From contig JAVHNS010000010.1 of the NCBI GenBank assembly GCA_036872755.1, positions 1,550,001 to 1,614,000 on the forward strand: a stretch of 64,000 bases of DNA, written 5' to 3'. The notes beneath the pieces are model-generated. The model ran no database searches. It saw only the letters and a list, made by a program, of their open reading frames with translations, and was not told the origin of the DNA. Of this stretch, positions 14,398 through 50,608 are shown one piece after another (the first letter of the stretch is position 1; every line of letters begins with the position of its first letter). The stretch is from Orbilia blumenaviensis (lineage: Eukaryota; Ascomycota; Orbiliomycetes; Orbiliales; Orbiliaceae). A program made the translations under genes and the position numbers.

Positions 14398-15930
<1,533 letters not shown>

Positions 15931-17563: not shown

Positions 17564-17773
17564 CTAAGAGTTTGGAGTTTTATTTCTCCAGGCTTCCATT
17601 AGGGCTAAGTACACCTTATAACAACGAATTCTCATCCGGTATTCTATAGCCCTGGGATCTGTGTACTCCAGTACTGTCACTTTCTTTTTCAGTCCCATTA
17701 TGTGGTCCCATATGTAGCGTGGTGTGTCGTCGGCTATGAAGCTGGAGGGCTTGCCCGATGCCTTACACGGCAT
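17564..17773 (-). CDS. Met-Pro-Cys small protein A (69 aa), tandem family member
   Basis: A single 70-codon frame with an ATG start. The product begins MPCKASGKP and continues IADDTPRYIWDHIM, then a basic, aromatic-rich helical tail. It is one of ten minus-strand genes here (called A to J) whose products start MPC. A, B and D align without gaps through residue 22: Met1, Pro2, Cys3, Lys4, Pro9, Asp15, Thr17, Pro18, Lys/Arg19 and Trp22 are shared. The start is fixed by this homology. This copy uses CCG for Pro and TGT for Cys, whereas its sisters use CCC and TGC, which argues for selection on the protein. There is no signal peptide, membrane segment or known domain, and the function is unknown. 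A cytoplasmic or nuclear protein is likely. Confidence 0.7.
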   Translation of the reverse strand: MPCKASGKPSSFIADDTPRYIWDHIMGLKKKVTVLEYTDPRAIEYRMRIRCYKVYLALMEAWRNKTPNS

Positions 17774-17898
17774 TTTAGCTCTTTTAGGTGGGTTAAATGG
17801 GTAGCTAAGTTTCGTATAAAGCTAAGGTATAGGCTCTGCCGCAGTTTTTGCTGTGGTGGAGCGGTTCAAGTGAAAGCCTATAGCTGCTGGCGGAAGCT

Positions 17899-18141
17899 TT
17901 AAGCCCACAGTGTATATGACGAGGCTCGAGTTATTGATATTGTCGCGGGGCTTGCCAATCGCGATCGAAGACCAAATTCTTGTCGAGATTCAGACGTTGA
18001 TTCTTGACCGCTCGTCCGCGGCCGACAGGCGATGATTCGATGGTAGTCTAGTGCTTGTGGTTCCCCGCTTTTTTTTACTTCTGGAAGCCTTTCGCGCAAT
18101 GGCCAATACAATCCACACTCTGCGTAACAATCCGAGACCAT
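17899..18141 (-). CDS. Possible small gene between two Met-Pro-Cys genes (80 aa)
   Basis: An 80-codon minus-strand frame with an ATG start lies between family members A and B, with TATATATA immediately upstream. It starts MVSDCYAECGLYWPL and is rich in Arg and Ser further on. It does not carry the MPC signature and I recognise nothing in it. It could be a diverged neighbour or a chance frame. Confidence 0.25.
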   Translation of the reverse strand: MVSDCYAECGLYWPLRERLPEVKKSGEPQALDYHRIIACRPRTSGQESTSESRQEFGLRSRLASPATISITRASSYTLWA

Positions 18142-18559
18142 ATATATATCAGGTAGGGTTCACCAATATTAGGTTTGAAATATTCGTGAGATTTGTAAGT
18201 GAATAGCTTCTATGTGTATCGGCTTTGGCAGCTCCAAAAGGCTAATTGAAGAAGCTCTTGTTGCTTGTGGCGTGGCGTCGGGCCGTATGTTTGTCCCGAA
18301 TTCCTGCCCCGATGGGAACAGCCCTTCTGTCAAACCTGGGACAAGGGTTCATATATCTGATTGATTGGGAACAATGCAAAAATGTATTCAAAATCCGCTG
18401 AAGAGCTTAAGAAACATCGACGTATCAAAGGAAAACTGCAAGCTAGTATACATCGAGTATCGTGAATGAGGTGGGGGAAAAGCAGGAGGCTAGTCTAAGT
18501 GTTGTACGGAGTATATAGTTTACATGAACCTCGAATTCCTCTTTGGAGCACAGCACTGG

Positions 18560-18766
18560 TCAGTTTAAGCGAGTCTGACGGTTCTGATAGTTGCGCATAT
18601 ACCCCCGATATAAATATTCAAGCCAATCATCATAGCTCCTCCGTCGAATCTCATCCCTCGGCCGGATTGGTTCGTCGTGTTTTTTCTCATAAACTTTGCC
18701 CCAGACAGATCGCGGCGTCCCGTCGGAGATGACCTCAAGGGGGCTTGTTGTTGCTTTGCAGGGCAT
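18560..18766 (-). CDS. Met-Pro-Cys small protein B (68 aa)
   Basis: A 69-codon intronless frame starting MPCKATTSP. It aligns gap-free with A and D over the first 22 residues (shared Lys4, Pro9, Ile13 with A, Asp15, Thr17, Pro18, Arg19, Trp22). The remainder is very basic and rich in Tyr and Arg (YDDWLEYLYRGYMRNY), predicting an amphipathic helix. In-frame GTG precedes the ATG by one codon; I take the ATG because MPC is the conserved start in all sisters. It sits about 0.8 kb upstream (in minus-strand terms) of A. Function unknown. Confidence 0.7.
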   Translation of the reverse strand: MPCKATTSPLEVISDGTPRSVWGKVYEKKHDEPIRPRDEIRRRSYDDWLEYLYRGYMRNYQNRQTRLN

Positions 18767-20827
18767 CACTGCTGGCCGGGTTGTTTGAGTGTGGGGGAGC
18801 TCTCGACAGGGATTCTAGTCCAACCGATGCCCTTCGAAGTTTGGAGCGAAAGGAGGGGTCGCAATATCAAATTAATCGATGCAATCGATACCCCGCGAAT
18901 CCAAGGCTAGCGACGCAGCGTGTGCCTTTTATCTTTTGATGTTTCTGCGACTGCAAGGTTCGAGTTCTTTTTTTTTTTTGCGCTTGGTGAATGTTTGGTA
19001 GTGACGTCAAGATTGAAATGGCGATATCGAGGTTTGGGATGGCTGTGTGTGTGCTACGCTTGAAATTTGATGTTTTTTTTTTTTCCCTTTGAATCTCCCG
19101 ATCGATCCGCCGACAGTGGTGCGTTCACTACAATACTAGGTCATGAGCGCGAGATAAAGAATAATTTCGGACTCCCTCCGTTGCATCCGTGTCGGCGGCC
19201 GATCTTCTGTCCCGTAAAGGTGATGGGGTAGGTTAATTTACGACTGCGTCGCCTCTAGACGTCTCCGACTATATTAAGTTAGTAGGAAGCCAAGAAAGAT
19301 TAGTTAGAATATAAAAGCCATTGTAGTTATAACCCCAACCAGCTGCCCAATCTCTACATATTTAACGAGAAAGTGGTGCGAAATTAAAAGGCTCCATCGC
19401 AGCCATGTCCAACTGACTACTATAGTACTAACGAAAACATAACACCTTCTTCGTTACACGTATCTCTAGTTAAGCTTAGTACGTATTCGAAGCGAATACC
19501 CGCAATTATAGGCCTTTGAGCCGGTGAGAGATTTTCGCGATAGCGCACACATAAACCCCCAAATGCTTCACTCGCCATGTTTATTATGCCTTAGAGATGG
19601 ATATCAATTTAGCTGGAAAAGGAGATTCCATTTTGCAATTCTAATTTCTACTCTCTATAGGCAACTGCATACTTCGAAATTAAGCTGGCAAGCACAATCT
19701 GCGTAATATGCAGATTACGCCACTCGAGATTTAAGAGTACCGGGGAAGAAGGGGATTCCTAGGGCATCGATTGATCTAACGGGTGGTTTATCCTCTTAAA
19801 TCATACTGACTGGAAACCTTCCCGGGGTTTATGCTCGGTGTATAAGGACTTGCTAGGTGATACCACTAGGGAAAAATACGTGGTAGCTGATGCTGTGACT
19901 AGGCCGACCCGCACCCACAAGCCGTAACGCCCTCAAAGGCGAGTGTTTTTTGAGGTTATTCCATCTTGGATCTCTTCTCAGGTTGTTCTGGATAAATGTC
20001 GAGTGTCCACGGTGAGTAATTGTCACCAATTGGAGCCTTTATACGACCAGAGGGTGGTATACGCCTTCACGGTTGCGCTGGATATCGAGAGGTGCAATTC
20101 TGTTTCCCATGAGAGAAACAGCTGCTTAATCTTTATGGCTGGCTGTCGCGGGTCGATATGGGGATTTACCACCTAATCTACCAGGCACCGTGTTTAAATA
20201 CACATAATTCTGTCGATTTCGAATCAGATGGGCCTAATGGGACGCAACGTTTCATTTTGTGTTGCTTCTGGTTCTGACGAGACCTGGCCGTCCATGTTAA
20301 CCCCCAAGTAAATTTCTGGGGGTCTCCCTTGCGTATTCGGTGATCGGTAGTTTAAGGGCTAAGTGACTTTCAAGTCAAAAATTTAAAGAGCTGAGGTCAA
20401 GACCCTAGACCGCGGGGGTTGATTTGAAGATAGTTCGGATTGATTTGCCACCGAGTGCACGAGGTGTTTGTTTCCTTTAGCAGGGGCTAACAAGCCGTCA
20501 CGGATACCTCGCCGTGCAACTAGGGCTCTTTCTGTGAGCCATTGACACCTCCGATACTTCTTTCTAGGTCCATGAGGCCTTGCTAGTCTGGTAACGTCAT
20601 TCATTGAGCCCCCGAAGCTGTGGTTTGGCAGTATATATGGTTTTTTTTGAAATTTTATTTACTATATCTTATTTAGTGAATGGAACCAGAGCCGTGTAGA
20701 CGACCGAACGAGGAAGGAAAGCTACCCGACATGCATTGGCGCACCTCATCGCTTGACCCCCATCATCAATTGGAAAAAAAAAAAAAAAAAAAAAAAAGGA
20801 AACAATAAAAATGCTGGAGGCTACTGA
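18767..20827. other. Intergenic region ending in a poly(A) tract
   Basis: About 2.1 kb with no frame that I can support as a gene. The right end carries a run of 24 A (20774-20797). Confidence 0.45.
20774..20797. repeat. Homopolymer of 24 A
   Basis: An uninterrupted A run lies 30 nt beyond the stop codon of family member C. Read on the plus strand it could be the tail of a retroposed sequence; read on the minus strand it is a T tract in the 3' UTR of gene C. No target-site duplication was found by eye. Confidence 0.85.
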
Positions 20828-21082
20828 TCAGACATCATAAACCCCAAACATCTCGTTCTTCTTCCTAACATCTTCAAAATGCTTGGCGATATCATGCTCC
20901 AGGCGCTCGATTGATTTAAGAGTTAGAGCGCGGTGCGGGTGCGGTTGGGCTCGGCCAATACTTCGGAAGTGGGCAATGTTTTCGCTTTGATAACGTAATC
21001 GAACGAAATTCTCCCAGTATCCGATGGGGATTTCGCGGGGGATGAGGACTTCTGACGGCGTGATTGTGGATTTGCAGGGCAT
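20828..21082 (-). CDS. Met-Pro-Cys small protein C (84 aa)
   Basis: An 85-codon intronless frame starting MPCKSTITP. It shares Met1, Pro2, Cys3, Lys4, Ser5, Thr6, Pro9 and Glu11 with its neighbours, and has the later Pro and Trp one residue displaced (IPIGYWENF). It is longer than A, B and D at the C-terminus, which is charged (HDIAKHFEDVRKKNEMF) and probably helical. Pro is coded CCC and Cys TGC. It lies between B and D, so B, C and D look like tandem duplicates. Function unknown. Confidence 0.68.
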   Translation of the reverse strand: MPCKSTITPSEVLIPREIPIGYWENFVRLRYQSENIAHFRSIGRAQPHPHRALTLKSIERLEHDIAKHFEDVRKKNEMFGVYDV

Positions 21083-21467
21083 GTTCGTGGTGATGTATCG
21101 TGTGTTTGCTCTTTTTAGGCTAGCTTGCGCTTGTCGATTTATCCAACTGGTTTTCTGTGATGATGGGGGGCGCCTGCGGCTGGTCTTTTTGCGATGATAT
21201 CGATATCGGTGGCTTCGTGGGAGGGTAGATGCAATAAAACGATGGGTATCAAGAAGTTGGTTTCAATGAAATAATGTTAACACCGTTGAAACTGATGATG
21301 AGAGAGAGAGAGAGGTGAGAAAGGGGGGTTGTAGGGTTTTGATGGTTTGCCATTGTGGCTTTTCAGCAAGCCGTCCCTTTGATTTTCTTTGCCATAGCGT
21401 AGTCGAAGTACACAATGGGCTGGTACGAGCTGGAATGATATTGGATAAAGGGCGATAAAATGGCTGT

Positions 21468-21659
21468 TTATGCTGCGGGAATACCCGCACGCGCTCTACT
21501 CATTCGACCTTCGTATATCGACCTCTCCCACTGGATGAAAGTCGGGGTTTTGACGAACTCTTCGTAGTCAAGTCTACGCCGCATGATAAGGTCCCAGACC
21601 CATTTCGGGGTGTTATCGCGGGCGTACTCCGGCGGCGGGAGCGAGGATTTGCAGGGCAT
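21468..21659 (-). CDS. Met-Pro-Cys small protein D (63 aa)
   Basis: A 64-codon intronless frame starting MPCKSSLPPPEY. It keeps the full N-terminal pattern of A and B: Lys4, Pro9, Asp15, Thr17, Pro18, Lys19, Trp22 (DNTPKWVWDLIM), followed by a short Arg-rich tail. The frame stays open upstream for 28 codons without the conserved motif, so I place the start at MPC by homology. A poly(A) run on the plus strand (21721-21738) gives a T tract about 60 nt before this ATG. Function unknown. Confidence 0.7.
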   Translation of the reverse strand: MPCKSSLPPPEYARDNTPKWVWDLIMRRRLDYEEFVKTPTFIQWERSIYEGRMSRARAGIPAA

Positions 21660-22257
21660 TGTGAGTATCGATACGGTGAAGTCGAATCCAACATACGAGC
21701 AATTGCAAAGCAACAGAGACAAAAAAAAAAAAAAAAAAGACAAAAGAGATTGGGCGTGCGGAATTGAAGAAATCCAATTGCTAGCGAAACATAGTCGATT
21801 TTATTCTCTTTGCAACTAAGAGAAAAGGAAAGAAGAGAAAAGAAAGAACACTGAAACATCTAGACCTGGTCTATTATCTATGGAAGAGCTTGACTCGTGG
21901 AATTTTTCAACATGAAGCAGACATACAACACGGACAGTTGGCCATGCGCCGATTTGATGCATGATGATGACATTTTGGATAGGGTCTATCTACGGCCACC
22001 TTCCGGACTGGTTTTGTTAACAGTATACCCAGTCAGACGTGTTAGGGTAGAATGAGAGTCGTCTGATTGCCCAAAATATTTGGATATGGACTCGGCACGA
22101 GCCTGCCGAGCTCGTACGCAAAATCACCTTGTCTCCATTGAGCACACAAATTGCACAACCAGGACTTGGGACTTTTAAAAGGCTTCTTTCTAATCTCCGG
22201 GCTGTTCAAATGTGAAAATAGCCACCGCCGAAATATTATCGATCGATCGGGAGGAAC

Positions 22258-22485
22258 TCATTTTCCTCTAATCGGACTGTTTGACAAGTACCTAGGTAGT
22301 TTCGAAACTCGACTTTTAGCTTTCGGCGGCCCGAGTAAGCTCTCGTATTGCTCAATGCCCTTTGTGTATGCAAACCAAAATCGACGGATTCTGTTGTGGG
22401 AGGTATCCGATGCGAGGCAGTCGAGTGTGGGGAAGAAGTTGGCGCCTGCGCGAGGCCCGCCCTTGCTAGACGGTGTGCAGGGCAT
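22258..22485 (-). CDS. Met-Pro-Cys small protein F (75 aa), divergent
   Basis: A 76-codon intronless frame starting MPCTPSSKG. It keeps Met-Pro-Cys but lacks Lys4, Pro9 and the TP..W block. The tail is basic and aromatic (RRFWFAYTKGIEQYESLL). A longer 134-codon frame overlaps it in another register but begins with TTG. The MPC frame is preferred because of its neighbours: it lies between D and E on the same strand. It could be a fast-evolving member or a decaying copy. Confidence 0.5.
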   Translation of the reverse strand: MPCTPSSKGGPRAGANFFPTLDCLASDTSHNRIRRFWFAYTKGIEQYESLLGPPKAKSRVSKLPRYLSNSPIRGK

Positions 22486-22670
22486 GACGTTTGAGGCTTT
22501 TTTTGTCGGGGTTGTTTCTTACCCCCGCTCCCGCTCCCGAATGTTTTGTCGACAGAAGATGTCGCTAGGAAATGTTGTTTATGGGCTGTTATGATCCCAG
22601 ATGTAGCCAATCTATAACCTGTGCCTGACTTTGTTTCCAAGATTCGATTGTTTTGTGAAGGGTAGCGGGT

Positions 22671-22940
22671 TCAGCCCAACTGGGACCAGATTTTCCGAAC
22701 AAGGTTTGTTATCGGTAAAATAGTATGTTGATAAACCCGCTGCCCGAGAGATTTCCGGGGACGGCGATACCGATATAGGCCTTCTTCCGGGTCCTGGTAG
22801 TAGAAAGTAGGCAGTCTATCCTGACACCTCATCAAGTCGAGCCTGATCTCCCAAAGGTGTAGCTTTTCTCTGAACGGCCTTGTCCCTAGCCACCTATATT
22901 CAAGAAGATCCCATGGCTCCGGTTGCGCTCTGCAAGGCAT
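22671..22940 (-). CDS. Met-Pro-Cys small protein E (89 aa)
   Basis: A 90-codon intronless frame starting MPCRAQPEPWDLLEY. It has Arg for Lys at position 4 and keeps Pro9. The rest is rich in Arg, Leu, Trp and Tyr (YYQDPEEGLYRYRRPRK) and probably helical. Pro is coded CCT and Cys TGC, unlike the CCC of C and D. It is the last of the six-gene left cluster. No signal peptide; function unknown. Confidence 0.62.
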   Translation of the reverse strand: MPCRAQPEPWDLLEYRWLGTRPFREKLHLWEIRLDLMRCQDRLPTFYYQDPEEGLYRYRRPRKSLGQRVYQHTILPITNLVRKIWSQLG

Positions 22941-24856: not shown

Positions 24857-26374
24857 ATGGAAGAAGCACAGGATAAATTCGAACCAGAATGGATTTGGCC
24901 TGACGACGAGGGCACCAATGTCTACGCCCAGGGATATGGAAGAGACCTCACTGTCATCTTCTCTTTTTCTTCCGATAAACGGAACCCCCCTACCTCTCTA
25001 GCTAACCGACTTTACACCAAATACGAGGAACTTAATGCCGACGATGAAATTGAGAACGAGGACCCTGCGACCACTTTTCCTACCATCAATGAAGCACACA
25101 CCGCGATCTGGAGAGCAATCCATCACATTTGGCCACAGTGTATCTCCCAGCCTGACCTTAGAACCAGGCTGGATTCTGTGGTACGAGTTGATAGTGTTGA
25201 CGGCTCTATTGAGAAGATTTCGTGGGACATTTACTCCCACCCTCTCTTTCCCAAGTTCGTTCAGAATCTTGCAGATAAAAGTCGTAAGTTTGTATATTCA
25301 CTATCAATCCTCTCATAGGCTGAGGGAACTAAAACTCTCCAAAAAGTTGGCGATATATCAGGAGATCTTGATACTGCGGTGGATTTTACCAGCCTCGTCC
25401 GTTACGAACAGCTCGGTGGCAGAGGCTGTACTACTCGGGTTCGTTTGCCTGGAGTTGACGGATACTGGGCCTTCAAGGGAGTAGATTTCCGAACTGCTTT
25501 GCATTATAGCGACAACGAAGGCGACAGCATCATTAGGAACCTGATTTATACATGGCATCAAGAGTGCAACACCCTCCAGCGACTTCCGTCTCACCCTAAT
25601 ATTCTGCCTCCACCGCAAAAGCTCGTTACTTTAAAGTGGCCGGACGGTTTAGCTCAACCGGTTATCTGTGGTGCTTTGTCCCCATTCTACCCTGGAGGTA
25701 CTCTTGCCTCCCGCATTGAGGAGAGTAACAAAACTGGGGTACGCATATCTCTTGAACTCAAGGCGCGGTGGTGCGCTAATATGGCTGCCGCAATGCTTCA
25801 TACTCATCGGGTTGCAAAAACGTATCACAAGGACCTCAAACCTGGCAATTTCGTCGCCGATGAGAACGATAATCTTATCCTTTGCGACTGGGAACAGCAA
25901 GATGCGAACCCTGTAACCCTTGCCCCAGAAGCAGATAGAACATGGGATGTTAGTACGGGGGACCTTCCAACAGCTCCGTCCGGCCGCCCACAGCTACAGT
26001 ACTCAAAATACAGCGGCCCGCCTCGTCGAAACGTGCAAGAGGCTGTTCTCGGAGATGCACCGTGGCATTTATGGAACGTGTTCTCACTTTGGGCGCTTGA
26101 ACAGCCCTGGGCGCTCGAGCTTGCAGAGGTCTTCAGTCTAGGGAGAACCATGTGGATACTACTTCGCCAGCCAGATAGTGACTTCGAGGATATCGAGCAT
26201 CCTGACGAGCTTGTCACTGATTGGGGCGGGTCTGAGGATATCCCCGCTGCCTGGAAGCAAACGATTGATCGATTCATATCACGGGATCCGAATAAAAGAC
26301 CTGATTTTTCGGAATTGTCAGAATTTTGGGTTAACGAGTGGAATACCCTGAAGACTACGAATAAAAACGGCTAG
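24857..26374 (+). CDS. Protein kinase-like protein with novel N-terminal region (484 aa)
   Basis: Two exons (24857-25283, 25347-26374) joined by a 63-nt intron with GTAAGT donor, an ACTAAAA branch-like site and AAAAAG acceptor; other acceptors nearby break the frame. The first 150 residues show no domain I recognise. From about 160 to 475 there is a kinase fold: Lys186 in WAFKGVDF as the ATP lysine, the catalytic loop HKDLKPGNF (Asp305, Asn310), and the metal-binding Asp323 in LILCDWEQ, where the usual DFG reads DWE. HKD in place of HRD plus DWE is common in fungal kinase-like families of accessory regions. Activity is plausible because all three key residues are present, but the substrate is unknown. 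The start MEEAQ was chosen for its good context; the frame is open further upstream. Confidence 0.8.
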
Positions 26375-26634
26375 ATGGCAGATAAAGCAAACTGAAAATG
26401 TACCTCTCTCATGGCCTTTCGGGTAAAGTTGCTCTGTAACAATTTATATTTTTATTTCCTTATCCCTATATGATTCGTATACGTACCATCTGGGGGTTTC
26501 TCCCTCCGGTTGCTTTGGCAGGGCGTTCGGCTTAACAAGAAGAAAATCGTGAAAGACTAAAATCATCAACTTCTGTTCGCATCCACATGACTACCCTCTC
26601 ACAGCGTCAATCTCTTTCTCTGGATTTTTCGTAG

Positions 26635-27072: not shown

Positions 27073-27179
27073 CAGTGACTAAGGGCCAAGCGCCTGCGAC
27101 ACCGTTGGAAGTATCCGGATTGTCGGCGGTGTTCCAAGGAACGGCACTGTTTCCGAACTGGACCGGTATCGCCTTGTTC

Positions 27180-28077: not shown

Positions 28078-31000
28078 CTAACCCTTCTGATACCAGAAAT
28101 TCCGCAACAGTTCCACGATACGAACCCGGTCTTTCCGTCTATCTGTGCTAGAGAAAGGTTCCGCTACCGGCGTGAGGGGGCCATCATGTTGATATTGATA
28201 CCAAGTCTCGACTGTCATTATCTCCCTAGCGGGCTTAGTAAGGGTCCAATGCCTACTGACGCCTCTCTCCAGCAACAGCTTTACAACATCGTAGTAGCCC
28301 AAATACGCTGCTACTGAAAACAATTCGTAATCAACCACATTAAGATCAACACCACGGTTCAGGAGCAATTCTAGAACTTCGCAGTGGCCGTTTCTTACTG
28401 CCATAGCACATGCACCTCCACGTCCTATCTTGATGTTGCCATGATGTCCAACTAATGATGCAAAAAGAACACCATCGCTACCTGCATCAACATCAGCGCC
28501 ATACTCCAACAACAACTCCACGACATCTCGATGCCCCGCCCATGATGCCCAACGAAGAGCAGCGCTTTCACCTGCATTAATATCGATATCAGCACCATTC
28601 TTCAACAACAGTTCTACAATATCTCGATGACCATGCGCTGATGCCGCAGAAAGAGCAGCGCTTTTGTTTCTTGCATTAATACCAGCACCACCTTCCAATA
28701 ATAGTTCCACCACATCTTGATATCCATGCAGTGATGCCCCATAAAGAGCACCTTTTTCACCACTTGCATTAACATCAGCGCCATTCTTCAACCACAGTTC
28801 CACGATATTTCGATGACCACCCCATGATGCCGCCGAAAGAGCAGCGCTTTTGTTTCTTGCATTAATACCAGCACCACCTTCCAATAATAGTTCCACCACA
28901 TCTTGATATCCACGCAGTGATGCCGCATAAAGAGCACCTTTTTCACCACTTGCATTAACATCAGCGCCATTCTTCAACCACAGTTCCACAATATTTCGAT
29001 GACCACCCCATGATGCTCCCCGAAGAGCAGCGCTTTTGTTTCTTGCATTAATACCGGCACCACCTTCCAATAATAGTTCCACCACATCTTGATATCCATA
29101 CTCTGACGCCCTATACAGAAAATTTCCATCATCCAGGTTAACATCAGCGCCAACCTCCAAAAACAGCTTTACAATATCTCGATGACCATTCACTAATGCC
29201 CTATAGAGAGCTTTACCATAATACCAGTTAATATTAGCACCATTCTTCAACAATAGTTCCACAACATCTCGATGACCATTCTGGGCTGCCCCACAAAGGG
29301 CTTTACCACCATCCTTGTTAATATTAGCACCGTATTCCAACAACAGTTCCACAACATCTCGATTACCATTTGATGAGGCCCCTAAAATAGCGTTACCATG
29401 ATCCTCATATTGATTGTCGTGGGCCAACAACAATATTAGATCTTCACGATTATTGATAAGTGACCAAGAATAAATCTCAGGGCCACTGGTGTTAACATCA
29501 GCACCATTTTCCAATAACAGTTTTACAATGTCTCGATGACCATTTAGTGATGCCCTTAAAAGGGCACTGTCAGAGTCTGCGTTGACATTGGCTTTATTCG
29601 GGAACGCTCCCACAGTATTAACCCAACCCCTTGGAAGTTCCATGTATCGCGGGTTTCCGAAAATTTCACCCTGTGCGTTGGCGGGAGCTCTTATCCCCAA
29701 TAGGAGTTCAACGAATTTGAGGTGATTTTTGGGGCTACCTGATAGCACACCAGTATCGCAACCAGATTTTGGTAGCACGCGTCCAGAGGCTAGAGGACTT
29801 CCAACATTATCTCGGTGGCCTCCACCCGATGCTCTGGTAAGTACTCTGTCCATTCGAATACTATATACTACCTCATGGTTGGGATCAGCGCCGCTATTTA
29901 AGAGTAGTTCTGCGATCTCATAATAGCCTTGATCGGCTGCTAGCCAAAGCGCTTTGTTACATTCTGCTTTCAGTATTTCCGGGTCCATGTAGACATTTTG
30001 ACCTAATAAATACTGCACACCCTTCTTGAGGCCGCTACGCGAAGCGTAGCAAAGGGCTGAATAGTGATGAAAGTTCAGATCGTATTGGGTTTCTTTTGGT
30101 AGGAGGTAGAGGCTGTTGGACCATCGGATTTCATGTAGGAACTTGCGGACAAAATCTTGCACTGTATCATCCGCTTCGAGGACGGCAGCGAGAGATGGGC
30201 AATACTCGTCGCAAAATGTAGTTAGCGGGAAATCGTGAAGTATCGTCAATGTCCTATTACGAAAGTCCCCAGAAAGAGCACTGGAGCCCGAACTTAGCAA
30301 ATACCCAAAGCAGACTTTCGCCATAGATGCCTTAGCATTGGCTTCTTGGAGGTCTTGCTTAATGATCTGGTCAGCTGGTTGAAACCGCTTAGAAATTATA
30401 TATTCTCGGATAGACGAATGTGCCAACTCAATCCTTACGACATCGTCCCCGTCTTCGTCCCCATCACTAACCCCTTTCGATTTCGAGTCTTTACTAGTTG
30501 CAGCAACAGCCACCAAGCCAGGACAGTAGCGAAGCATTTCCATTTTGATAGGTATCCTGTGATGAGGATTAAAGTAAACTGTATTATTCGTGTTGACTGC
30601 TAGCGCATCAACGAGCTCATCAATTGTTAGCGGCCTTGGAGAGTATGTAAGAAACTGTAGAATCCTTATAGCTTCGTTCTTGTAGTTGTCTGGTATATTG
30701 TTTAATATTCTCGAATAAGTTTCTTCCAAATTCTCAGGAAGATCTTCGAGAGCTTTATCAAGGTTTGTGGGTCCGAGGCACTTTTCAAGTGCATCGAGTT
30801 GGCAATCAACCCACTTAAACCTATTGAACGTTAGTTTTAATATATATATATAGTGCTTTGTTGCTTGCGCGAATACAACAAAGAAGTGAAATGTCTCTTA
30901 CATTCCATTGGCTTTTTCTGAAAGAACCTTTTTGATTCTTTCTCGGCCTTTCGGCCCCCATCTTTTAAATTCCGTCGTCTCCGCCACTCGATGTTCAATA

Positions 31001-32839
31001 AATTCTTGGATATCGTTGCCAATAAGGTCGCTATGAATGGAAACAATTTGAGGTTTGATGGTGCAGTTTTTAAGCTCGGATTCAATGTCCTCTTCGATAC
31101 GGCTCGTTATAAGGAGGTGTATGTTTAGATGCCTTGAACTAGTGACGGTATCTTGTATCCATGAGAGTAACTGTTTTCTGGTCTTTGTGTCGCGACTGCT
31201 TTCGTCTACTGCATCTAAAACCAACCAGATTTCCCCGGCTTTCTCAGCCATAGACACAAAAGTGCTGCGTAGTGACCCCAATGCCGGTTGATCTTTTCCA
31301 TTATTACAAAGAGAAAACAGAGAGTGTAGCTGTTCCGAAACCTCTCCACGTAGAGTATAGAGCTGGCTGGTTAGAACACGAAGCATCTTTTCTAAAGATT
31401 GTTTGCCAACATCGTTATCGTCAAAATAGAAGTAAAGAAGATGGCGATCGATAATCGTTTCGGATTCCTTCAGATGCTCAATGATGATTGAGCTAAGGAC
31501 TGTTTTGCCACATCCAGGAATACCGCGAAGCCACAAAAATGAATTCCGTTGCCTTTTCCATTTCTCAAAGCTCGCGCTCTGGAGAAACCAACGGCCCGAG
31601 TCTTTATGGCGCCGCTGAATAGCAGCGTTATAATTTGTCGAGGGGTCAGCGGGCGACAACCAAGAATCTATCGCCACTTGGACCTGAGAAAATGTGAGAA
31701 GCATAACATTTTTCAACATTTCCTTTACATTTTCACTAACTTCCATACAGTCAATACAACAAATCCTACATGTTCTAAGAAAACAAGAAGTCTTGCAACG
31801 AGCGCGAGATGCACGACGAAAACCAATGGGATGACTAACTAGACGTCACAAGCGTAGCGATCTTTTCCTCTCTCTCCACCTTGTCCGCTCTAACCTCAGA
31901 AAGCAAATTTTTGGCATATGCAGCAGCTGTCATGGCTGCATATCCTTGCCAACCATCGTTTTTGTGAGTATCAGCATAGTCGCATATGCCCCGAATGACA
32001 ATGCAGGGTAATTGATTCATCAAGCCTGCTGCTTCCATCTCAAAACACAGAACTTCCGTTTCTGTAGCAAATTTGTCTCGCAGTTTTGCATTTTTTATTA
32101 ATTGATTTCCCGAAGCAATTAGACCGTAGTGGACTGCTGGATTATCGTCATCTTCTGTTCTTTCGGCTCGTGGTACTATTTTTGATGGATCGTTTCCACA
32201 GAGAACCGCACAAGTTGCACCAGCCATATTCGGTGGGTGCTCGATGTGAGATTCATACAGTACATCGCTAGCTAAATCGGGTCGTCCATATTTTTTTCGT
32301 AGTTTCCGATTATCTTCGAGGTCTAGAAGGCCGGTGATAACTTCGTGAAAGTTATTACCGCGCTTTTCATGCTTGACTTTCACTCCGGTTGCCGCCGCTA
32401 ATAGCAGCAAGGGTGGTTGGTTCAAGTATCCTGTAAGCGTGAAACTTTGACCTTGAATCTGCTTGCCAAAGTCATGCTGAAGGACACTACCTCTCCCATT
32501 CCCCGGAACACTTACTACAATATCGCCAAGGCGGATATCATGACGGCTGCTTGGGGCACCACCAGCTATGCCAACCATTAGGCAAACTCTTATATTATCA
32601 AAGCTGCGTATCATATCCTTGACAACAGCAGTCGCAGATGATGTGCCATATTCTCCCATGGGCAAGGCAGCAATGACGACATTATGACGTCCAATACTGC
32701 CTAAAGTGTAGTGATTGTTATCGTTGGGGGAGAGTTGCGTCGCCTCATCGTGTTCTTTGTCGAGAAATAGTTGGGCGGCTTGATACTCGGTTGCTATAGC
32801 GCAGATCCATCCAATGGTGTAGATACTCGGATCAGACAT
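28078..32839 (-). CDS. STAND/NLR-like receptor: nucleoside phosphorylase-NACHT-ankyrin repeats
   Basis: Proposed exons 32839-31850, 31791-30902 and 30820-28078 give 1540 aa. The last intron (81 nt, GTAAGA donor) is well supported: it restores the NACHT motif GMFKWVDCQLDALEKC. The first (58 nt, GTGACG donor) is inferred; otherwise the phosphorylase and NACHT parts are two adjacent genes. Residues 1-330 are a PNP_UDP-type domain (GWICAIATEYQAA, VGIAGG, RLGDIVVS, CFEMEAAGL, IRGICDYAD). The NACHT NTPase has Walker A GIPGCGKT (about 420-427) and Walker B IWLVLDAVDE (about 518-527). About 15 ankyrin-type repeats fill the C-terminal half, several nearly identical. By analogy with fungal NLRs, the repeats would sense a ligand, NACHT would oligomerise, and the N-terminal nucleosidase-like domain would act as effector. 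The ligand is unknown. Confidence 0.85.
28661..29100 (-). repeat. Tandem 186-nt repeats inside the ankyrin region
   Basis: The string beginning CTTTTGTTTCTTGCATTAAT starts at 28661, 28847 and 29033, so the period is exactly 186 nt (62 codons, two ankyrin repeats). Copies differ at only a few positions. Near-identity implies recent duplication or ongoing gene conversion. Confidence 0.9.
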
Positions 32840-41011: not shown

Positions 41012-41817
41012 TTAAATCCCGCTTTTGAACCGGACGCGCTTTCGTCTGGGATCCATTGAGAGACTATCTGCCGCCATTATTGGTCTTAAGTTTGCAGTGG
41101 CCCGCCTTTTTGTCCCCGAATGGTGAAATGTGGTATTTGCGTCGAACAATCGAGACACTGCGTGAGCCGATGAATCCCTGTCCTTAGGCATAGAACTTGC
41201 GCTCCGAATCCGTGCCAGGATACTCTGCATTCGCTTCCTCCCGAATTGATAGCCTTCCTCCGCTTCGCATCCCGGAATCGTTTTCTGTTTGAGTATCGAT
41301 TTGGCCTCAAGCCTTTTACTACGACGTTGGCTGGTGAGATCGATATCCCGGACTAATCGTCGGCCGCGCTCTACCGACGCGACCCAGAAGCAGGCGTAAT
41401 ACCGCTACTAAGCTCATCCATTGACAGACCGATAAAATTCCGAGCGGTCGCAATCGTAAGGTGATCGTAAAGCCGGTGTATTTGGCGGCTTGACATCGGC
41501 CGAGCAGGCGCAGGCATGTGTACCGGGGCTCCGTTTTGAACGTCTATTCCGCTATCCCGATTAAACCCGTGCTGGCATCTAAGCTGCCTCCCCATCAGCG
41601 CTGCTTTCTGAAGCTGTACAAATATTTCTCGGTGCCGGGCTTGCTTTTGTTGCCATGATTGCCGTTGGAAAGCTTCTTGCTTGGGGGGTAGGACGGGCCA
41701 TGGCACACCCTCTCGGAGGACATGTATCGGGCCTTCTGGGGCGCGGGGATCGATGACGCCGCGATGTGTCTGACCCATCGACGGTTGTAGATACTCGCTT
41801 AACAAACTGCAAGGCAT
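41012..41817 (-). CDS. Met-Pro-Cys protein I, larger subtype (249 aa, two exons)
   Basis: The first exon (41817-41375) starts MPCSLLSEYLQP. A 56-nt intron (41374-41319, GTAGAG donor, CGTAG acceptor) removes a stop and joins in frame to 41318-41012, ending RRKRVRFKSGI. Without splicing the protein would be 148 aa. The spliced form matches neighbour J in three places: MPCS-L/I-L...L-Q/E-P at the start, an IH..(Y/L)DH..I..(A/S)RN block near the middle, and a short Lys/Arg-rich C-terminus. The basic end looks like a nuclear localisation signal. The region about 60-90 is Gln-rich. Function unknown. Confidence 0.6.
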
Positions 41818-43328: not shown

Positions 43329-43985
43329 CTATATCCCCAGTCGTGGCTTCTTCGTCATCTCCCCAGGTTCAGGCTGTGTCCCTTCAAAGGTTCGCTTTGC
43401 TAACCGTGCAGGTACAATAGATTGTTGCATTTCCCCCGCCCCTAATCGACATTCGGGATATTCAAAAGAATTTGGTCTGCTCTGGCAGGAATCGCCCGAT
43501 GGAGAATTTGCCTCCTTAATCCTTCCAATTATTGTATTTACGCTCGTGGCTGCTGGAATACATTTTTCTTTATTAAGCTGCAAAGGTACCGAAGCTCGCG
43601 ATCGCCGGAGATTATCAGCTAGAAGGCTATTACGACTGCGTTGTATTCGATAGTGATCCAGCACCCTTGGATGAATTTGGATCATTTGCGGCGAAAAGTT
43701 ATTTATATCCGCAACCGTGGCATTAATTTCAGCCTGAGAGGGCACAGGTAGCTGTCTAATCCGACGTGCATGGACTGAATGAAGAAGCCACGCGATCTGT
43801 ATTTGTTGTTGTTGCAGAATTACTAGTTGTATTCTGGAATTCTCTTGTTGGACTCGTTGCATCGTTTGCGTTTGAGGAGTCCCCATCTGGGGGTTCATAG
43901 GCATACCCATACCCATGTGCGTCGGGGACCAGGCATTTGGCGCGAGCGGTGGTTCTAAAGCCCCTGCAAGAATACTACAGGGCAT
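43329..43985 (-). CDS. Met-Pro-Cys protein J, larger subtype (218 aa)
   Basis: A single 219-codon frame starting MPCSILAGALEPP. It is followed by a Met/Gly/Pro-rich stretch (MGMGMPMNPQMG), a Gln-rich helix (QQENSRIQLVILQQQQ), the IHPRVLDHYRIQRSRN block shared with gene I, and a basic end KKPRLGI. Pro2 is CCC and Cys3 TGT, whereas I uses CCT and TGC, so the shared protein start is not just recent DNA identity. The Gln-rich core and basic termini suggest a nuclear regulator, but that is inference. The plus-strand frames here are shadows. Confidence 0.65.
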   Translation of the reverse strand: MPCSILAGALEPPLAPNAWSPTHMGMGMPMNPQMGTPQTQTMQRVQQENSRIQLVILQQQQIQIAWLLHSVHARRIRQLPVPSQAEINATVADINNFSPQMIQIHPRVLDHYRIQRSRNSLLADNLRRSRASVPLQLNKEKCIPAATSVNTIIGRIKEANSPSGDSCQSRPNSFEYPECRLGAGEMQQSIVPARLAKRTFEGTQPEPGEMTKKPRLGI

Positions 43986-45534: not shown

Positions 45535-46245
45535 AGTATGGAATCGAACAACACCTGGCATGGTAAAGCAGGGTTACCGAAAGAAGGAAGGGAGAAAGGG
45601 AGAAAAAGGATACTACCAGAAATTTATACTCCAAATCGACTCAAACAGTGCAACTGGAGGAAATATGTTAGTATTATTAGACTACAGGATTATTTGTATA
45701 TATTAAAATTGTAATTCAGCTAGGTTAGCCATCATCAACCTGGAACCAGTTCATCACGTCGATCCTTGTCAATTGTGTTCTGTTGTATTTGGGCCCAGCT
45801 CATTTTAACGCAACACAAATCTGCCTCACGTTGGGCAGGATCTGAGCGACTGCACCCGGCAGCTCTGTCGCCTGCTGCATCAAACATTGCATTGGTCTCT
45901 CATATCTTCTGAAGCCAGACGCGCGACTAGTGGGCTAAATACCCATCATTTTATATGTATAACAGCCCGCCAGCTGCTCATTTCCCATTCATAAACCAAT
46001 TAATTTCTAATCCAACCTCTTCCGATCGAATGATCGCTTCATTGCATCGCATTGCGACCAACCGGGAATTTACCTCCCATATTCGTGCGTCAATTCTTTC
46101 TGGCTCCTGAACCTGTCTGAGTGACTATATCTCAACTATCATCACCACCCTAAACGGGCCAATCTTAAAGAAACCCCATTCATCGTTCTTTCAAATTAAA
46201 ACATACTAGCATACCCGAGGGTTTTCGAAAGTACCCCTCACTACA
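45535..46245. other. Intergenic region
   Basis: About 0.7 kb holding the 3' flank of the Lys-rich gene and the pyrimidine-rich 5' leader of the F-box-like gene. I see nothing else. Confidence 0.5.
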
Positions 46246-47510
46246 ATGCCGTCTTTACCCCCCGAAATCTGGCTGTCTATTTGCAGCTATCTTCATTCCC
46301 ATGACCTAAAATCCGTATCGCGGTCCACAAAGTACCTTTATGGAACCGCTATGCCCTATTTGTTTCGCGCAATTAACATTTCACGGGAAACGGCTATCGC
46401 GATCGAAGGAGGAGGCTACAGCGACCTCACAGATTACGTCCGGTACGTAGCAGTTTATACTTCAAAGTCATCCTACTCTTAGTGAACCGACACTATTACT
46501 TTTCTTCTTTTCGCTATATAACTCAGTAAGACTAACAATAAGCCTCCGGGTGTTATAACTATAGAAGCGCCACCATCCGCGGGTTCAGTGACGCTCTCTT
46601 AGACGCCGCCATCACAGATCTCGAGGCTTCTTGTCGGGCCCTTCAGTACCTCCCCAATGTCCAGCACCTGAAAATCAGCTTTGTAGCTATGAGAGAGGCG
46701 CAAGCATACATATACCTCGCAACATTCCGCGAAATATCTCAATACACCTGTTATCAAAAACTCACCAGCCTGACGTTGGAGTTCGTCCCCGGAACACAAT
46801 CCTTCAGCTTCAACGGAAACGCAATTCGTTCCTTATCGGCTAGAATACAAAAAATCATGGGCGATACTAGCATAAGCTGCCCTCCAAATATTGAACGCCT
46901 CGATGTTTCAGGAATGGCGAATTCATACTTCGACTTCACCGTCAGAGCGATGCCGTACCCTTGCGTCCTATTTTATCCAACAGCGAACACCCTAAAGAAA
47001 ATCAGAATAGAGACCAATTCGTTAATTTCACCGGTAGCGGATCTCGACCCAATACGAAACATGAACTTAGCTACGTACTCCTTAGTCACAGAAGTCTGGT
47101 ACATCCAAAACACGCACGTCAACGAATTCTACAGCACATACGCCGAAATCTGCCGAAGGTTTCCGAACACGCAGAATCTAAGATTCGATTACGACGGCGT
47201 AGCCCTCCAAAGAGGTTCTACGGCGGGAGAAACGTACCAGTACCTTGCGGATTTGAAAAAGCTTAGAAGAGCGATACTACCCTGGCCCAGGCATGGTTAT
47301 CAGAGTCCTATCGAGCCCAGTAGCTTGGGTACAAGCTTGGGGCTGTGGCTTAGAGAGCTTAATTTTCAATCATTGGAGTATGTTGATTTTGTAACTAGGA
47401 GCTGTTATCTTAGTGTGGGGAAGGTATGTAGAATTAAGCCGGCGGTACCGCAACCGATCGGTATGATACAACAACGGAGTCTTAGGCTGTCGGGGGAAAT
47501 TGGCCTTTAA
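46246..47510 (+). CDS. F-box-like protein (380 aa, two exons)
   Basis: Exon 1 (46246-46442) begins MPSLPPEIWLSICSYLHSHD and continues LKSVSRSTKYLYGTAMPYLF, a fungal F-box with its LPPEI start and following helices in residues 3-45. A 122-nt intron (GTACGT donor, ACTAAC branch-like site near 46530, ATAG acceptor) joins in phase 2 to exon 2 (46565-47510). The C-terminal 330 residues contain leucine-spaced stretches resembling divergent LRR-type F-box tails, without clear repeats. F-box proteins link targets to Skp1-cullin ubiquitin ligases; the target here is unknown. An upstream leader has several CCCC/TC tracts and no obvious TATA. Confidence 0.75.
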
Positions 47511-47872
47511 CCTTATTTAAGCCTCCCAAAGCCTAAGTTTGTTCGAACGTTGCGGGTGGCCTTAGCGTTCAGTCCAACTACCCTTTCATTTCACAATTGA
47601 GTCACCAGTAAATATAAGTTTGTCTCGAATAATTGAACATAGAGAGCGTTTATATGCCCAGATGGGATCTCAAGCCTCAAGACTAAATAACCAACCATAG
47701 TAGATGTCTGACCTCTGTTGTATTCTCGGTATTCTCTCATTCTCGGAACCCCCCCCCCTCTCCCCTTAAGCAGCGTTAAGCCTATGAGTTTGACATATTA
47801 AGTACTCACATATAAGGCACAATTTTGCAAATTCAGAGCAAAGGGGGGAGAATTCCGCACACTTTAACGAGC

Positions 47873-48097
47873 CTAACCGTGAAGTCTCATCAGACGGTCT
47901 TGGGCCCGTCGTAACGTGAGTAACCTCATAAAAGTACCCGTACACCTTTCAAGCGCATTCCATTCCCAGCGCTTCTGCTCCTCGCTTAGGTTGCGTGTGA
48001 TCCGTAGCCAGGCATCAAGGTAATGAAGGTAGATCTTTGAATCAAGTTCAGAATTTAAGGGTGAGTATGGAGGGGTTAAGGCTGCGCGGCAAGGCAT
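47873..48097 (-). CDS. Met-Pro-Cys small protein G (74 aa)
   Basis: A 75-codon frame starting MPCRAALTPPYSPLN. The frame is open upstream for 68 codons, but the MPC start is chosen by homology. It keeps Pro9. It is closest to H: both have (R/S)xA(L/I)xPP(Y/F) at positions 4-11, a YLH element followed by DA and RN, then a Gln/Lys-RRW or KRW block, and a basic C-terminal helix (RRAQDRLMRLHG here). Pro is CCT and Cys TGC, against CCC and TGC in H. It lies between the two F-box-like genes, on the opposite strand. Function unknown. Confidence 0.68.
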   Translation of the reverse strand: MPCRAALTPPYSPLNSELDSKIYLHYLDAWLRITRNLSEEQKRWEWNALERCTGTFMRLLTLRRAQDRLMRLHG

Positions 48098-49410
48098 TGG
48101 AATCCTTCGTGATATGCTGCAGGACTTATAAGTTTGCAGGTTGGTGCATTCGTGCTCTCGTATAGTGCGGAGTGCATGTAAGCTGAGCTCGAAGACCCCC
48201 CCTTCCCCACAGAATGACAGCGCCAAGACCGTTGACTCAAATTCCAACAAATGTTGCAAATTCGAAACCGGAAAATGTACTTGTTGGTACCAGCACCCCA
48301 CGATCTCTGGATGTTAAAAGCTACTACTTTCTCTTCGGAGATTCATAAAACGGACTCCTCGGGTGAATGGGGGGTGGCTGATAGCTCTCAGCCAGCTACT
48401 AGTGTAGCTTAAAGCTTCTATTATCCCACAATATTCACCGTTCCCACTAACTTTATGCGGCTTCATACTAAAAGAATGAATGAAGGAAAAGTTTGAGCTA
48501 ATAGCTTCGTTTGAGGTCTTGAAGTCAATATACTTGCTAGGTTTCTTGGGCTAGTCCGAGCTAATCGCGTGCTATCTGCATCCCCGTTCCAAATCCAGGG
48601 TCCTGTAGCCCGATTGGACAGTACAGCTCGGAAAGGACGTCACTCTGATATTTTAGTCTTATCCCCAAAAAATAAACTTCAACAGAGCTAGGAAACATTC
48701 CCCATAACCCCATATTTAACCACCCCCATAAACACTGAATAGAAACTTCTGAAGACTGCACTGGTAATAAGATATCGGGCGGGGGTTATGACATGAAAGA
48801 GAAAAGATCAGACAGGGCCCCCTCCCCTGCAAAACGAAAAGAAAACAGATAAGAGGTCTGCTGACCGCATCGGTGAGACCCGGCTAACCCCACTAGCTCC
48901 AGCGCTTAAAAGCTAACTTAGTTGATAATCGTAAACTCCTGGCGATTGAGTTACACGCACCATAGAAACCCAGCGTCCGCGCGCGGCTTGGCATACGCTC
49001 TATGAACCCACGGTTTTTTTTTTTGTTAACAACAATCCTAACTCGAAACCGGGATGTGGGACCCACAATGGGAACCATGGGGAAGATAAGGTGTCTCTTC
49101 TTGTTTTGGTTATACTATCAATGAATATAGCCGGAACCCGAAGTATCTGCCACGTCACATGGACTATCAATCGATTTGATCTAACTAGTTAACGGGCAAG
49201 ACTATGAGACCGTAAGTTGTGAAAATTTTACTCGGATGTGCCACAACTTTTGCATCTTCATCTGGGGATACCTCGTAGGACCCTCCTTTGATTAATCGAT
49301 TTTAATGGAAATTCTTTAAAGATATATATATACAATCTCAATCATAGAATTATTCGCTATCTACCCAGAATACTTATATATAAAACACCCCCATCTATCC
49401 ATCCCTCAAA
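48098..49410. other. Intergenic region
   Basis: About 1.3 kb. Near its right end there are TATATATA runs (49322-49332 and 49376-49384) before the next plus-strand gene. No supported gene. Confidence 0.45.
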
Positions 49411-50163
49411 ATGAGTTACGTCCCCCGTGAACTCCAATACCTCATCCTCGAACAATCCGAAAAATCACAGTATCCAACTTTAATCCAAGTCTGCAAAGCC
49501 TGGAAAACCCATCTTTTCAAAAACTTCAAACAGCGCTACGTGCAACCTCACTTCCCAGATGCAAAATACATCGCATCCCACCATCAAGAATTAGACATCG
49601 GACTTATCGCACCAGTCCCACCTGAAAGGGCACCGTTTTTGATCCACTCCGCAATAGTGGAGCATTCCAGGTATTTGCGGGGTACGATCAAGCGAATCGA
49701 TTGGGGCACCGGGTCTTGGTTACAACTCGGGGAGTATAATATCGACCGCGCGCCGAAGCCGGATGATCCCGGTGTTTTGGCGGATACTGAGAGGTTTAAG
49801 GGATATCTTAATGATCCCGTCCTCATCGCGAATGCGGAGGATACATTACTCTCCGGCCGTAGGATTAACTTGGTGACACGATACCCGGGGGGTTCGAGCC
49901 ACCAACTCGCAAGAAGGTGTGAATCTAGCGTGGCGAAGGGGAGTCAGAGGGTTTTGGTGGGGGAGGCGTTGGGGTTTGAGTTCTTTGGGAGTAATAGGCT
50001 TTTAGAACGGCCGCGGGAGCTCGAGCCGGATCAGGTTATGCCTAAGTGTTCTTATCATGTTGTGTATAATTGTGCGCCTGCGCCGGATGGGAAGGCCGTG
50101 GTTGATTCTGAGGCTGATGTGACGGTGTTTATTTACTATCCTGATATAGAGGAAGTAGCTTAG
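49411..50163 (+). CDS. F-box-like hypothetical protein (250 aa)
   Basis: A single 251-codon frame with ATG in good context (ctcaaaATG). Residues 3-45 (VPRELQYLILEQ ... PTLIQVCKAWKTHLF) look like a degenerate F-box: a Pro start, hydrophobic helix and a V-C-K-x-W element. The remainder is not recognised; it contains conserved-looking stretches such as GTIKRIDWGTGSWLQLG and a C-terminal YHVVYNCAPAPDG. Codon use shifts from AT-ending in the first third to G-ending later, without loss of frame. A ubiquitin-ligase adaptor role is possible but weakly supported. Members G and H of the Met-Pro-Cys family flank it on the other strand. Confidence 0.65.
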   Translation: MSYVPRELQYLILEQSEKSQYPTLIQVCKAWKTHLFKNFKQRYVQPHFPDAKYIASHHQELDIGLIAPVPPERAPFLIHSAIVEHSRYLRGTIKRIDWGTGSWLQLGEYNIDRAPKPDDPGVLADTERFKGYLNDPVLIANAEDTLLSGRRINLVTRYPGGSSHQLARRCESSVAKGSQRVLVGEALGFEFFGSNRLLERPRELEPDQVMPKCSYHVVYNCAPAPDGKAVVDSEADVTVFIYYPDIEEVA

Positions 50164-50377
50164 TTTTTAGAAGTAGACATCCCTGTTTGCTTTTTAGTTA
50201 TTATACATCAGCCCCTTGTATCTAGTCATTGCTTCTTCCTGGGAGGCGGGCAATCAGGGGCCTTAGAGCAGAATCGATTGAATCTAACCTCCCAATAGAG
50301 CTGATGGAAGTCCCCCCCAAAAATTCCGATGGAAGCGCTCTGCGCATAAGTCCAAACCACAAGCTTCCATTTCCAGC

Positions 50378-50608
50378 CTAGCCGTTAGGCCTGAGATGTC
50401 CCCTGCGAATCATTGCGTTCAAAGCCCTAAACCGTGCGGAGGGGTCTAAGATAGCTGCAAGGAATACCCATCTCCTAAGCTGCTGTACCACGGTGAGACG
50501 ACTGTTCCGCGTGGCATCGAACCATATGTGGAGGTACTCGAGTTCCTGTTCGCGGGAAAATATGTTGGGGCCTTTGAATGGGGGTAGTATGGCTATTGAG
50601 CAGGGCAT
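50378..50608 (-). CDS. Met-Pro-Cys small protein H (76 aa)
   Basis: A 77-codon intronless frame starting MPCSIAILPPFKGPN. It keeps Pro9 and matches G through YLHIWFDATRN and the later QQLRRW block. The C-terminus is basic (ALNAMIRRGHLRPNG). On the minus strand TATATATAAA ends only about 13 nt before the ATG, so either the leader is extremely short or the run is not the TATA box. Function unknown. Confidence 0.68.
   Translation of the reverse strand: MPCSIAILPPFKGPNIFSREQELEYLHIWFDATRNSRLTVVQQLRRWVFLAAILDPSARFRALNAMIRRGHLRPNG

Follow-up and report, generated by a model that had tools for sequence, protein, structure and literature searches.

The 64-kb window, i.e., the whole stretch of DNA analysed here, contains 11 first-ATG frames of at least 60 amino acids (aa) that start with Met-Pro-Cys (MPC) on the minus strand, and none on the plus strand. 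MPC is the commonest start tripeptide among minus-strand ATG frames of this length (11/62), followed by MGG with three. A sequence-only reading had listed ten of these frames; all ten are confirmed in position and strand, each beginning at the first ATG after a stop, while the eleventh (25358..25558, minus strand, 66 aa) had been missed. The latter lies opposite a kinase-like frame with a kinase domain match on the other strand, and was rejected as a non-member, probably spurious. Simulated sequences (Markov orders 1, 2, and 3; n = 200 each) yield on average 0.05–0.12 MPC frames per strand, with a maximum of two, so that about 0.1 are expected per strand against the 11 observed. The small size of the products and a codon usage that barely sets them apart might suggest chance frames; against this excess, the homology retained without MPC, and the probable orthologues in other species, the probability of such an origin is negligible. 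Chance is refuted for the group, with frames 22485 and 22940, taken singly, outside that refutation.

The frames are named below by the coordinate of their ATG, and all those of the window are on the minus strand. Frame 17773 (17564..17773, 69 aa, TP..IWD motif) is assigned to subfamily 1 by phmmer and blastp matches; after removal of MPC, phmmer matches it to C20:21980 (E = 1.9e-6) and C7:2338547 (2.3e-5). Frame 18766 (18560..18766, 68 aa), assigned in the same way, reaches 7.2e-3 and 9.9e-3 with two members without MPC, and blastp matches members of C7 and C10. Frame 21659 (21468..21659, protein P0001, 63 aa), for which an AlphaFold2 model is also available, matches C20 and C16 members without MPC at 1.8e-7 and 3.6e-7. 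Frame 21082 (20828..21082, protein P0004, 84 aa) has a best paralogue at only 0.022 without MPC, and is placed in subfamily 1 with a probable orthologue in O. oligospora (P0006 TWF192_009141; phmmer 5.6e-23, 45 of 80 aligned residues identical). With MPC included, 17773 and 21659 match relatives from O. ellipsospora and D. dactyloides with E values no higher than about 3e-8, and the match of 18766 to foreign relatives is weaker. Three homology searches revealed no relatives in other species for the remaining six window frames.

The long type is represented by frame 43985 (43329..43985, 218 aa), with an IIGRIKEAN stretch, and by frame 41817 (41371..41817, 148 aa), which may continue via a 50-nt candidate intron (41353–41402) into 41012–41352 to give 251 aa. 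Compared with 43985 without MPC, the spliced product scores 61 against a shuffled mean of 33.8, a score reached by none of 300 shuffles; taken singly, the first part is equalled by 3 and the second by 11 of 300. Frames 48097 (47873..48097, 74 aa) and 50608 (50378..50608, 76 aa) are paralogues of each other by the same test (score 47 against a shuffled mean of 22.9, 0/300 shuffles), and their phmmer values without MPC, 0.061 and 0.047, fall, like the 0.022 of 21082, in a range (0.01–0.1) where two control pairs also occur. Whole-genome protein searches with 43985 and with 50608 returned the self-match only. The membership of frame 22485 (22258..22485, 75 aa) is based on the MPC start: without it, there is no phmmer match, and one of five pairwise scores is marginal (reached by 4/300 shuffles). 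Frame 22940 (22671..22940, 89 aa) shares with members the MPC start and Pro at position 9; without MPC it has no phmmer match, its five pairwise scores lie inside the shuffle range (the best is reached by 21/300), and its match to profile A5 is circular, since 22940 is itself a row of that profile. The ten frames had been proposed to form one family, which is supported for subfamily 1, joined beyond MPC by phmmer and blastp; 22485 is joined by MPC only, and 22940 by MPC and Pro9 only. Pro at position 9 is confirmed in seven of the ten, and the proposed size of 63–89 aa is correct for eight, the two long-type frames having 148 and 218 aa.

Beyond the window, similar frames are clustered in C16 (17 frames), C20 (2), and C7 (2), giving 31 members at four loci of one genome. 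Location on a single strand, as noted for the window (10/10), is also seen in C20 (2/2) and C7 (2/2); in C16 two of 17 frames are on the plus strand, so one strand per cluster is not a rule of the family. Frames C7:2331438 and C16:511700 were included despite an in-frame Met upstream. Left out of the counts were 25558; C16:515053 (62 aa, without support, a judgement call); C16:506996 (58 aa, opposite 507139); three C20/C7 frames shorter than 40 aa; and L011 (a stray 63-aa MPC frame in C8, without support) and L007 (55 aa), both unlike members by eye. The 31 members include frames for which MPC is the sole support, among them C16:499429, 540734, 541331, 22485, and 22940. The whole-genome pattern survey covered MPC-(Lys/Arg/Gln) starts, and its background may be too low, as the reversed control patterns carry extra CpG. 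No MPC frames occur outside the clusters in 176.5 kb of the 264 kb surrounding the four loci, a result partly built in by drawing the cluster borders round the frames. RIP was considered as a link to the members and rejected: RIP-like two-kb windows (C16, 2/40; C20, 7/25; C7, 3/15; C10, 6/52) show no clear association with them. No shared promoter motif stands out among 6- to 9-mers in the 400 bases upstream of the 31 members compared with 1500 random segments, the best 6-mer having p = 9e-5 in 2047 tests.

Similarity beyond the start was assessed by phmmer without MPC for 30 members (511700 omitted, as also in the pI and codon tests; all 31 were used for hydropathy, Cys, the C-terminal motif, and promoters). 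At E ≤ 0.01, there are 36 matches among the 870 ordered pairs of members versus 2 among 12390 member–control pairs, and both control matches proved to be family sequences; between 0.01 and 0.1 there are 16 member pairs versus two control pairs. All but two of the 36 matches join members of subfamily 1 (TP..VWD helix), and the other two join another pair. With the first sequence of each alignment as reference, paralogues show 16–38% identity. Since only 10 of the 30 members, including three of the ten window frames (17773, 18766, and 21659), match another at this threshold (E ≤ 0.01) without MPC, similarity clustering would split the family; the shared start thus exposes a divergent family that would otherwise be fragmented. 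A C-terminal LLxRIR-like motif, in a pattern written after part of the counted sequences had been viewed, is found in 12 of the 22 members that do not belong to subfamily 1 versus 11 of 409 control frames. The family comprises at least two subfamilies and the longer type.

Homology searches, of the kind proposed earlier as a check, found relatives in other species, all those named belonging to Orbiliaceae. Identity in probable orthologues is 73/86, 42/61, and 41/73 residues, and MPC is kept in all ten relatives from outside this genome (P0003, P0005–P0007, P0009–P0014). The invariance of MPC is partly built in, because members were picked by this start and searches were run with MPC-bearing rows; one related frame in C7 begins with MPR. 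Within the members Pro is encoded by four codons and Cys by two, in line with the suggestion that the start is conserved as protein, not as DNA. Frames this short are often missed by gene finders. The proposal of an undescribed family is supported by the Orbiliaceae relatives, the homology without MPC, and the lack of any Pfam match over the cut-off for the ten window frames (best E 0.12 and 0.26); Pfam matches among the 11 A7 members (NOT2_3_5_C, E = 0.0033, and PML_C, 0.26, one member each) were not judged convincing. Profile searches of PDB sequences gave no matches for A6 and three weak ones for A7 (best E 0.41), and a Foldseek search of PDB with the subfamily-1 model gave none, so these searches yielded no convincing known family. 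The MPC proteins almost certainly form a genuine family, as yet known from Orbiliaceae only, whose members are small, for the most part basic, helical, and probably intracellular. Judged from the clustering and similarity of its members, the family seems to have grown at a few loci through local duplication and marked divergence.

The products had been described as basic, probably helical, and without signal peptide, and each of these features is supported. The pI is at least 8.9 in 25 of 30 members, the other five being near-neutral or acidic. The AlphaFold2 model of 21659 is confident (pLDDT 85.6), with helices at 19–31 and 39–57 and pLDDT below 50 at residues 1–3 only; the model for subfamily 2 is poor (64.8). 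In codon usage, members exceed the control frames (full score, p = 3e-5; synonymous score, p = 0.028), but the correct reading frame ranks first in only 9 of 30, which makes codon bias scant evidence for coding. By hydropathy alone, no signal peptide-like stretch (19 residues above 1.6) is present in any of the 31 members. This bears on the idea that the proteins are effectors aimed at the prey, leaving the cell by a route that needs no signal peptide, with bodies varied by an arms race with nematodes. Short, divergent, lineage-restricted genes, here with all named relatives in Orbiliaceae, are what is generally described, in the cited passages, for species-specific genes of nematode-trapping fungi, and for the small secreted proteins (SSPs) expressed during infection the same study proposed tandem duplication with subsequent rapid divergence (Meerupati et al. 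2013, PMC3828140). Both groups are short, often orphan, and divergent; however, SSPs are secreted according to the same passages, and would be expected to have several conserved Cys, while MPC proteins lack a signal peptide-like stretch, have no Cys besides Cys3 in 19 of 31 members, and occupy four loci. With no known export route, and with well-conserved probable orthologues that make an arms race look improbable, an effector role is quite unlikely.

As MPC lies outside the confident fold in the model of 21659, the start itself may be an accessible tag that would be trimmed to Pro-Cys and might carry a lipid anchor; low pLDDT is common at chain ends, which makes this weak evidence. The initiator Met would be cleaved because Pro follows it, MetAP being described in the cited passages as acting on Met-Pro ends (PMC8189435), and a free Pro-Cys end, often followed by Lys or Arg (residue 4 in 20 of 31 members), would be left outside the folded helices. 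The Cys, which is near the N-terminus with basic neighbours (31/31 for Cys3, by selection), might be S-acylated, so that the N-terminus would tether the protein to a membrane with the aid of the basic residues, while the helical body, which varies and in many members bears the C-terminal LLxRIR-like helix, would dock a different partner in each paralogue. In this speculative proposal, the MPC proteins would be adaptors anchored in a membrane, alike in their tag and different in their bodies. A real divergent family carrying an S-acylated tag is the best explanation overall, and one that we put forward tentatively, as possible rather than probable. GAP-43 and PSD-95 are proteins S-acylated at an N-terminal Cys, preceded by Leu or Asp. 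By analogy, the MPC proteins resemble them in having Cys among the first residues, basic residues nearby, and no transmembrane segment; they differ in the Pro before Cys, and acylation here is putative.

The exposed Pro could instead serve as a Pro/N-degron, read after Met removal by a Gid4-like receptor, making the proteins short-lived, nutrition-dependent regulators. Yeast Gid4 recognises N-terminal Pro exposed by MetAP in substrates such as Mdh2 (PMC8189435), the sequence permits such binding, and Pro2, present in every member, is not part of the confidently modelled region. The substrates named in the passages cited are, however, metabolic enzymes, with Cys no stated part of the signal, and the constancy of Cys3, equal to that of Pro2, is left unexplained, which makes a degron unlikely. 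The MPC proteins may also be ordinary cytosolic or nuclear orphans with a chemically unremarkable start, the longer type having basic NLS-like tails; the basic composition and the Lys/Arg-rich C-termini of 43985 and spliced 41817 agree with this. A functionless start should not outlive the rest of divergent paralogues, although the start was also the search criterion, and this reading is a serious possibility, if short of probable.

Partnership with the NLR (NACHT-ankyrin/WD40) receptors of the window was considered because of gene neighbourhood: the window cluster both contains and adjoins NPHP3_N/NACHT frames, an ankyrin gene lies within the C16 cluster, and a frame located 3 kb away from the C20 members (C20:25602-27137) shares 42% identity with the PNP_UDP_1 frame of the NLR in the window. 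Yet NPHP3_N has at least 124 matches genome-wide, among the matches listed none is at C16, C20, or C7, and ankyrin genes are numerous too (184 matches); with such abundance chance neighbourhood is easy, and the partnership is very improbable.

Returning to the tag, MPC might, in a broader and rather unlikely reading, be a novel N-terminal signal of modular kind, carried by dozens of helical microproteins of predatory fungi that differ in all else, predating the split between constricting-ring and adhesive-trap lineages and serving for one cellular site (e.g., the trap cell membrane) or for joint switch-off. If functional, it would be a three-residue signal testable via two residues in fungi studied for nematode capture, and, with four loci in one genome, whole clusters are open to deletion. 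A common start on variable small proteins is also known from the MSDIN family of Amanita, whose members differ in the middle and agree at the end. Their precursors have about half the length of MPC proteins and yield cyclic peptides, whereas probable orthologues in the MPC family keep their middles.

The small frames that start with Met-Pro-Cys (MPC) are a clustered family at the protein level, best shown for subfamily 1, the members with the TP..VWD helix. All ten minus-strand frames placed in the window by the sequence-only reading (17773 to 50608) were found at their coordinates, and the claimed Pro at position 9 is present in seven of them. Markov simulation (200 sequences at each of three orders, first-ATG MPC frames counted per strand) gave a mean of 0.05–0.12 frames per strand, against 11 observed on the minus and 0 on the plus strand; the eleventh, 25558, lies opposite a kinase-like frame and was put aside.

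Two start classes were surveyed in the whole genome (42.46 Mb in 23 contigs). The pattern MPC-(Lys/Arg)-(Ala/Ser) has 23 matches versus 9 for the reversed control; 15 of them are family frames, on contigs C7 (2), C10 (5; the window is C10:1550001–1614000), C16 (7; 1217248 bases), and C20 (1), and the other 8 are, on reading, short or unlike the family. MPC-(Lys/Arg/Gln) with Pro9 has 33 matches versus 20, with caution due on the backgrounds of 9 and 20, as the reversed patterns carry one extra CpG; 15 of the 33 fall at the same four loci, and C2:2572981 and C5:1492146 are the two examined of the 18 remaining. By these two start classes, the family seems largely restricted to the four loci. The frames kept number 17 in the C16 cluster (15 minus, 2 plus), ten in the window, and two each in C20 and C7; hence, the claim of a single strand holds in the window (10/10 minus) and fails at C16 (2/17 plus). 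Outside the clusters, 176.5 kb contain no MPC frame, which is partly built in, the borders having been drawn around the frames. The frame C16:533234 is identical to the hypothetical protein TWF730_003932 of Orbilia blumenaviensis. Two stretches of C20 separated by about 8.6 kb, 8187–8761 and 16819–17294, encode frames that agree in full over 122 aa (100% identity). At C7:2339005–2339568 (minus), a frame starting MPRKASIL is similar to the adjoining MPC gene, with Cys3 replaced and the remainder diverged, and looks like a decayed paralogue.

With residues 1–3 removed, E ≤0.01 is reached by 36 of 870 ordered member pairs versus 2 of 12390 member–control pairs; the controls in these two pairs are the MPRKASIL frame and a C7 member whose translation was begun at an upstream Met. 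Thirty-four of the 36 lie inside subfamily 1 and two represent the pair C16:507982/507139, so that 10 of 30 members take part; at E 0.01–0.1, there are 16 member pairs versus 2 control pairs. For the proposal that the ten window frames are one family, similarity beyond MPC passes E 0.01 for 17773, 18766, and 21659 (3/10); 21082 (E 0.022) has a probable orthologue in another species, and two pairs match within themselves. These are 48097/50608 (E 0.061/0.047; score 47 vs. a shuffled mean of 22.9, reached by 0/300 shuffles) and 43985 with the spliced reading of 41817 (61 vs. 33.8, 0/300; parts alone, 3/300 for the first and 11/300 for the second), the intron of the latter having been chosen after the likeness of the two ends had been seen. 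This candidate 50-nt intron (41353–41402, minus) lengthens 41817 from 148 to 251 aa on removal and adds an ILARIR motif. Such support does not extend to 22485, with one marginal score among five comparisons (39 vs. 23.0, 4/300), nor to 22940, none of whose pairwise comparisons stands above shuffled sequences. Whole-genome searches with 43985 and with 50608 each match the query only.

Subfamily 1 (four members in the window, three on C16, one each on C20 and C7) shows MPCK(A/S)..P and TP..(V/I)WD in most rows; when the whole genome is searched with the relative from D. dactyloides (E up to 10), the seven places found all belong to this subfamily. The pattern (LIV)(LIV)x(KRW)(ILV)(RKHNY) occurs in the last 60 residues of 12/22 other members, 11/409 control frames, and 0/9 subfamily 1 members, an excess partly built in, since the pattern was written after some of the counted sequences had been seen. 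By eye, the C-terminal ends are similar in the foreign relatives P0007 and P0009–P0014.

Homologues beyond this genome were also found. Three protein searches with an E-value limit of 10, which scored 182, 438, and 294 candidates, yielded 14 proteins: four of this genome (P0001, i.e., 21659; P0002; P0004, i.e., 21082; and P0008), eight from O. oligospora (Arthrobotrys), O. ellipsospora, O. brochopaga, and D. dactyloides, and two more (lgn, ena). Within these searches, the proteins are seen in Orbiliaceae only, the family of O. blumenaviensis and of every named source. Profile E-values are weak for P0006 (O. oligospora TWF192_009141; 0.23, before joining the query rows) and P0014 (0.24); against their probable orthologues here, they reach 5.6e-23 and 1e-25. 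The start is MPC in 10/10 foreign proteins, although the queries favoured such starts. Identities between probable orthologues are 46/61, 42/61, 45/80, 73/86, 47/81, 60/84, 61/75, 41/73, 38/75, and 71/77 aligned residues. TWF696_003740 and TWF696_003743 of O. brochopaga, which makes constricting rings, correspond to C16:507982 and C16:513835, here 6 kb apart. The contigs given for the two O. brochopaga proteins are equal in length; should the locus tags follow one another on a single contig, the cluster would be conserved in that species. Since relatives occur in both D. dactyloides and O. oligospora, the family probably predates the split of the constricting-ring and adhesive-trap lineages.

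As claimed, the ten window frames have no Pfam match above the cut-off (among 11 aligned members, the best is NOT2_3_5_C, E 0.0033, for one), and the proteins are mostly basic and lack a hydrophobic stretch, in agreement with the absence of a signal peptide. PDB sequence searches with family profiles gave no convincing match, and no description of the family was recognised in the literature searched, including PMC10662756, matched in its reference list only. The closest published frame, from PMC3828140, is that of short lineage-specific genes of nematode-trapping fungi, with tandem duplication and RIP-driven divergence; therefore, we place the family with lineage-specific clustered orphan genes, unusual in that its members share a start and carry no secretion signal.

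The AlphaFold2 model of 21659 (63 aa, 8 rows; mean pLDDT 85.6, pTM 0.67) has helices at 19–31 and 39–57, in line with the helical proteins proposed, and Foldseek found 0 matches to it in PDB; the subfamily 2 model is poor (pLDDT 64.8). As pLDDT <50 is confined to residues 1–3, the most conserved residues, MPC, are outside the confident fold of the model, although chain ends often score low. Because Met-Pro ends are a MetAP substrate (PMC8189435), the initiator Met would be removed, leaving a free Pro-Cys N-terminus, the likeliest use of Cys being putative S-acylation. The main specific rival is that MPC acts as a putative Pro/N-degron.

Among neighbouring genes, three adjoining frames at 28078–32839 (minus) with PNP_UDP_1 (phosphorylase superfamily), NACHT/NPHP3_N, and ankyrin domains are likely a single NLR-type gene, its ankyrin part having a 186-bp tandem unit (94% matches). 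Adjoining frames at 57527–61876 (minus) with PigL_N, NACHT, and many WD40 repeats make a second one, with a 144-bp tandem unit (76–80% matches). Lying 3 kb away from the MPC frames of that contig, a 512-residue open frame at C20:25602–27137 (plus) shares 42% identity, across 341 aligned positions, with the PNP_UDP_1 frame of the first of these NLR-type genes. The 250-aa frame at 49411–50163 (plus), whose start, VPRELQYLILEQS...CKAW, is F-box-like by eye, has no Pfam match at E 0.001. Frames at 5253–6095 (plus) and 15517–16098 (minus) carry a pectate lyase and a peptidase inhibitor I9 domain, respectively.
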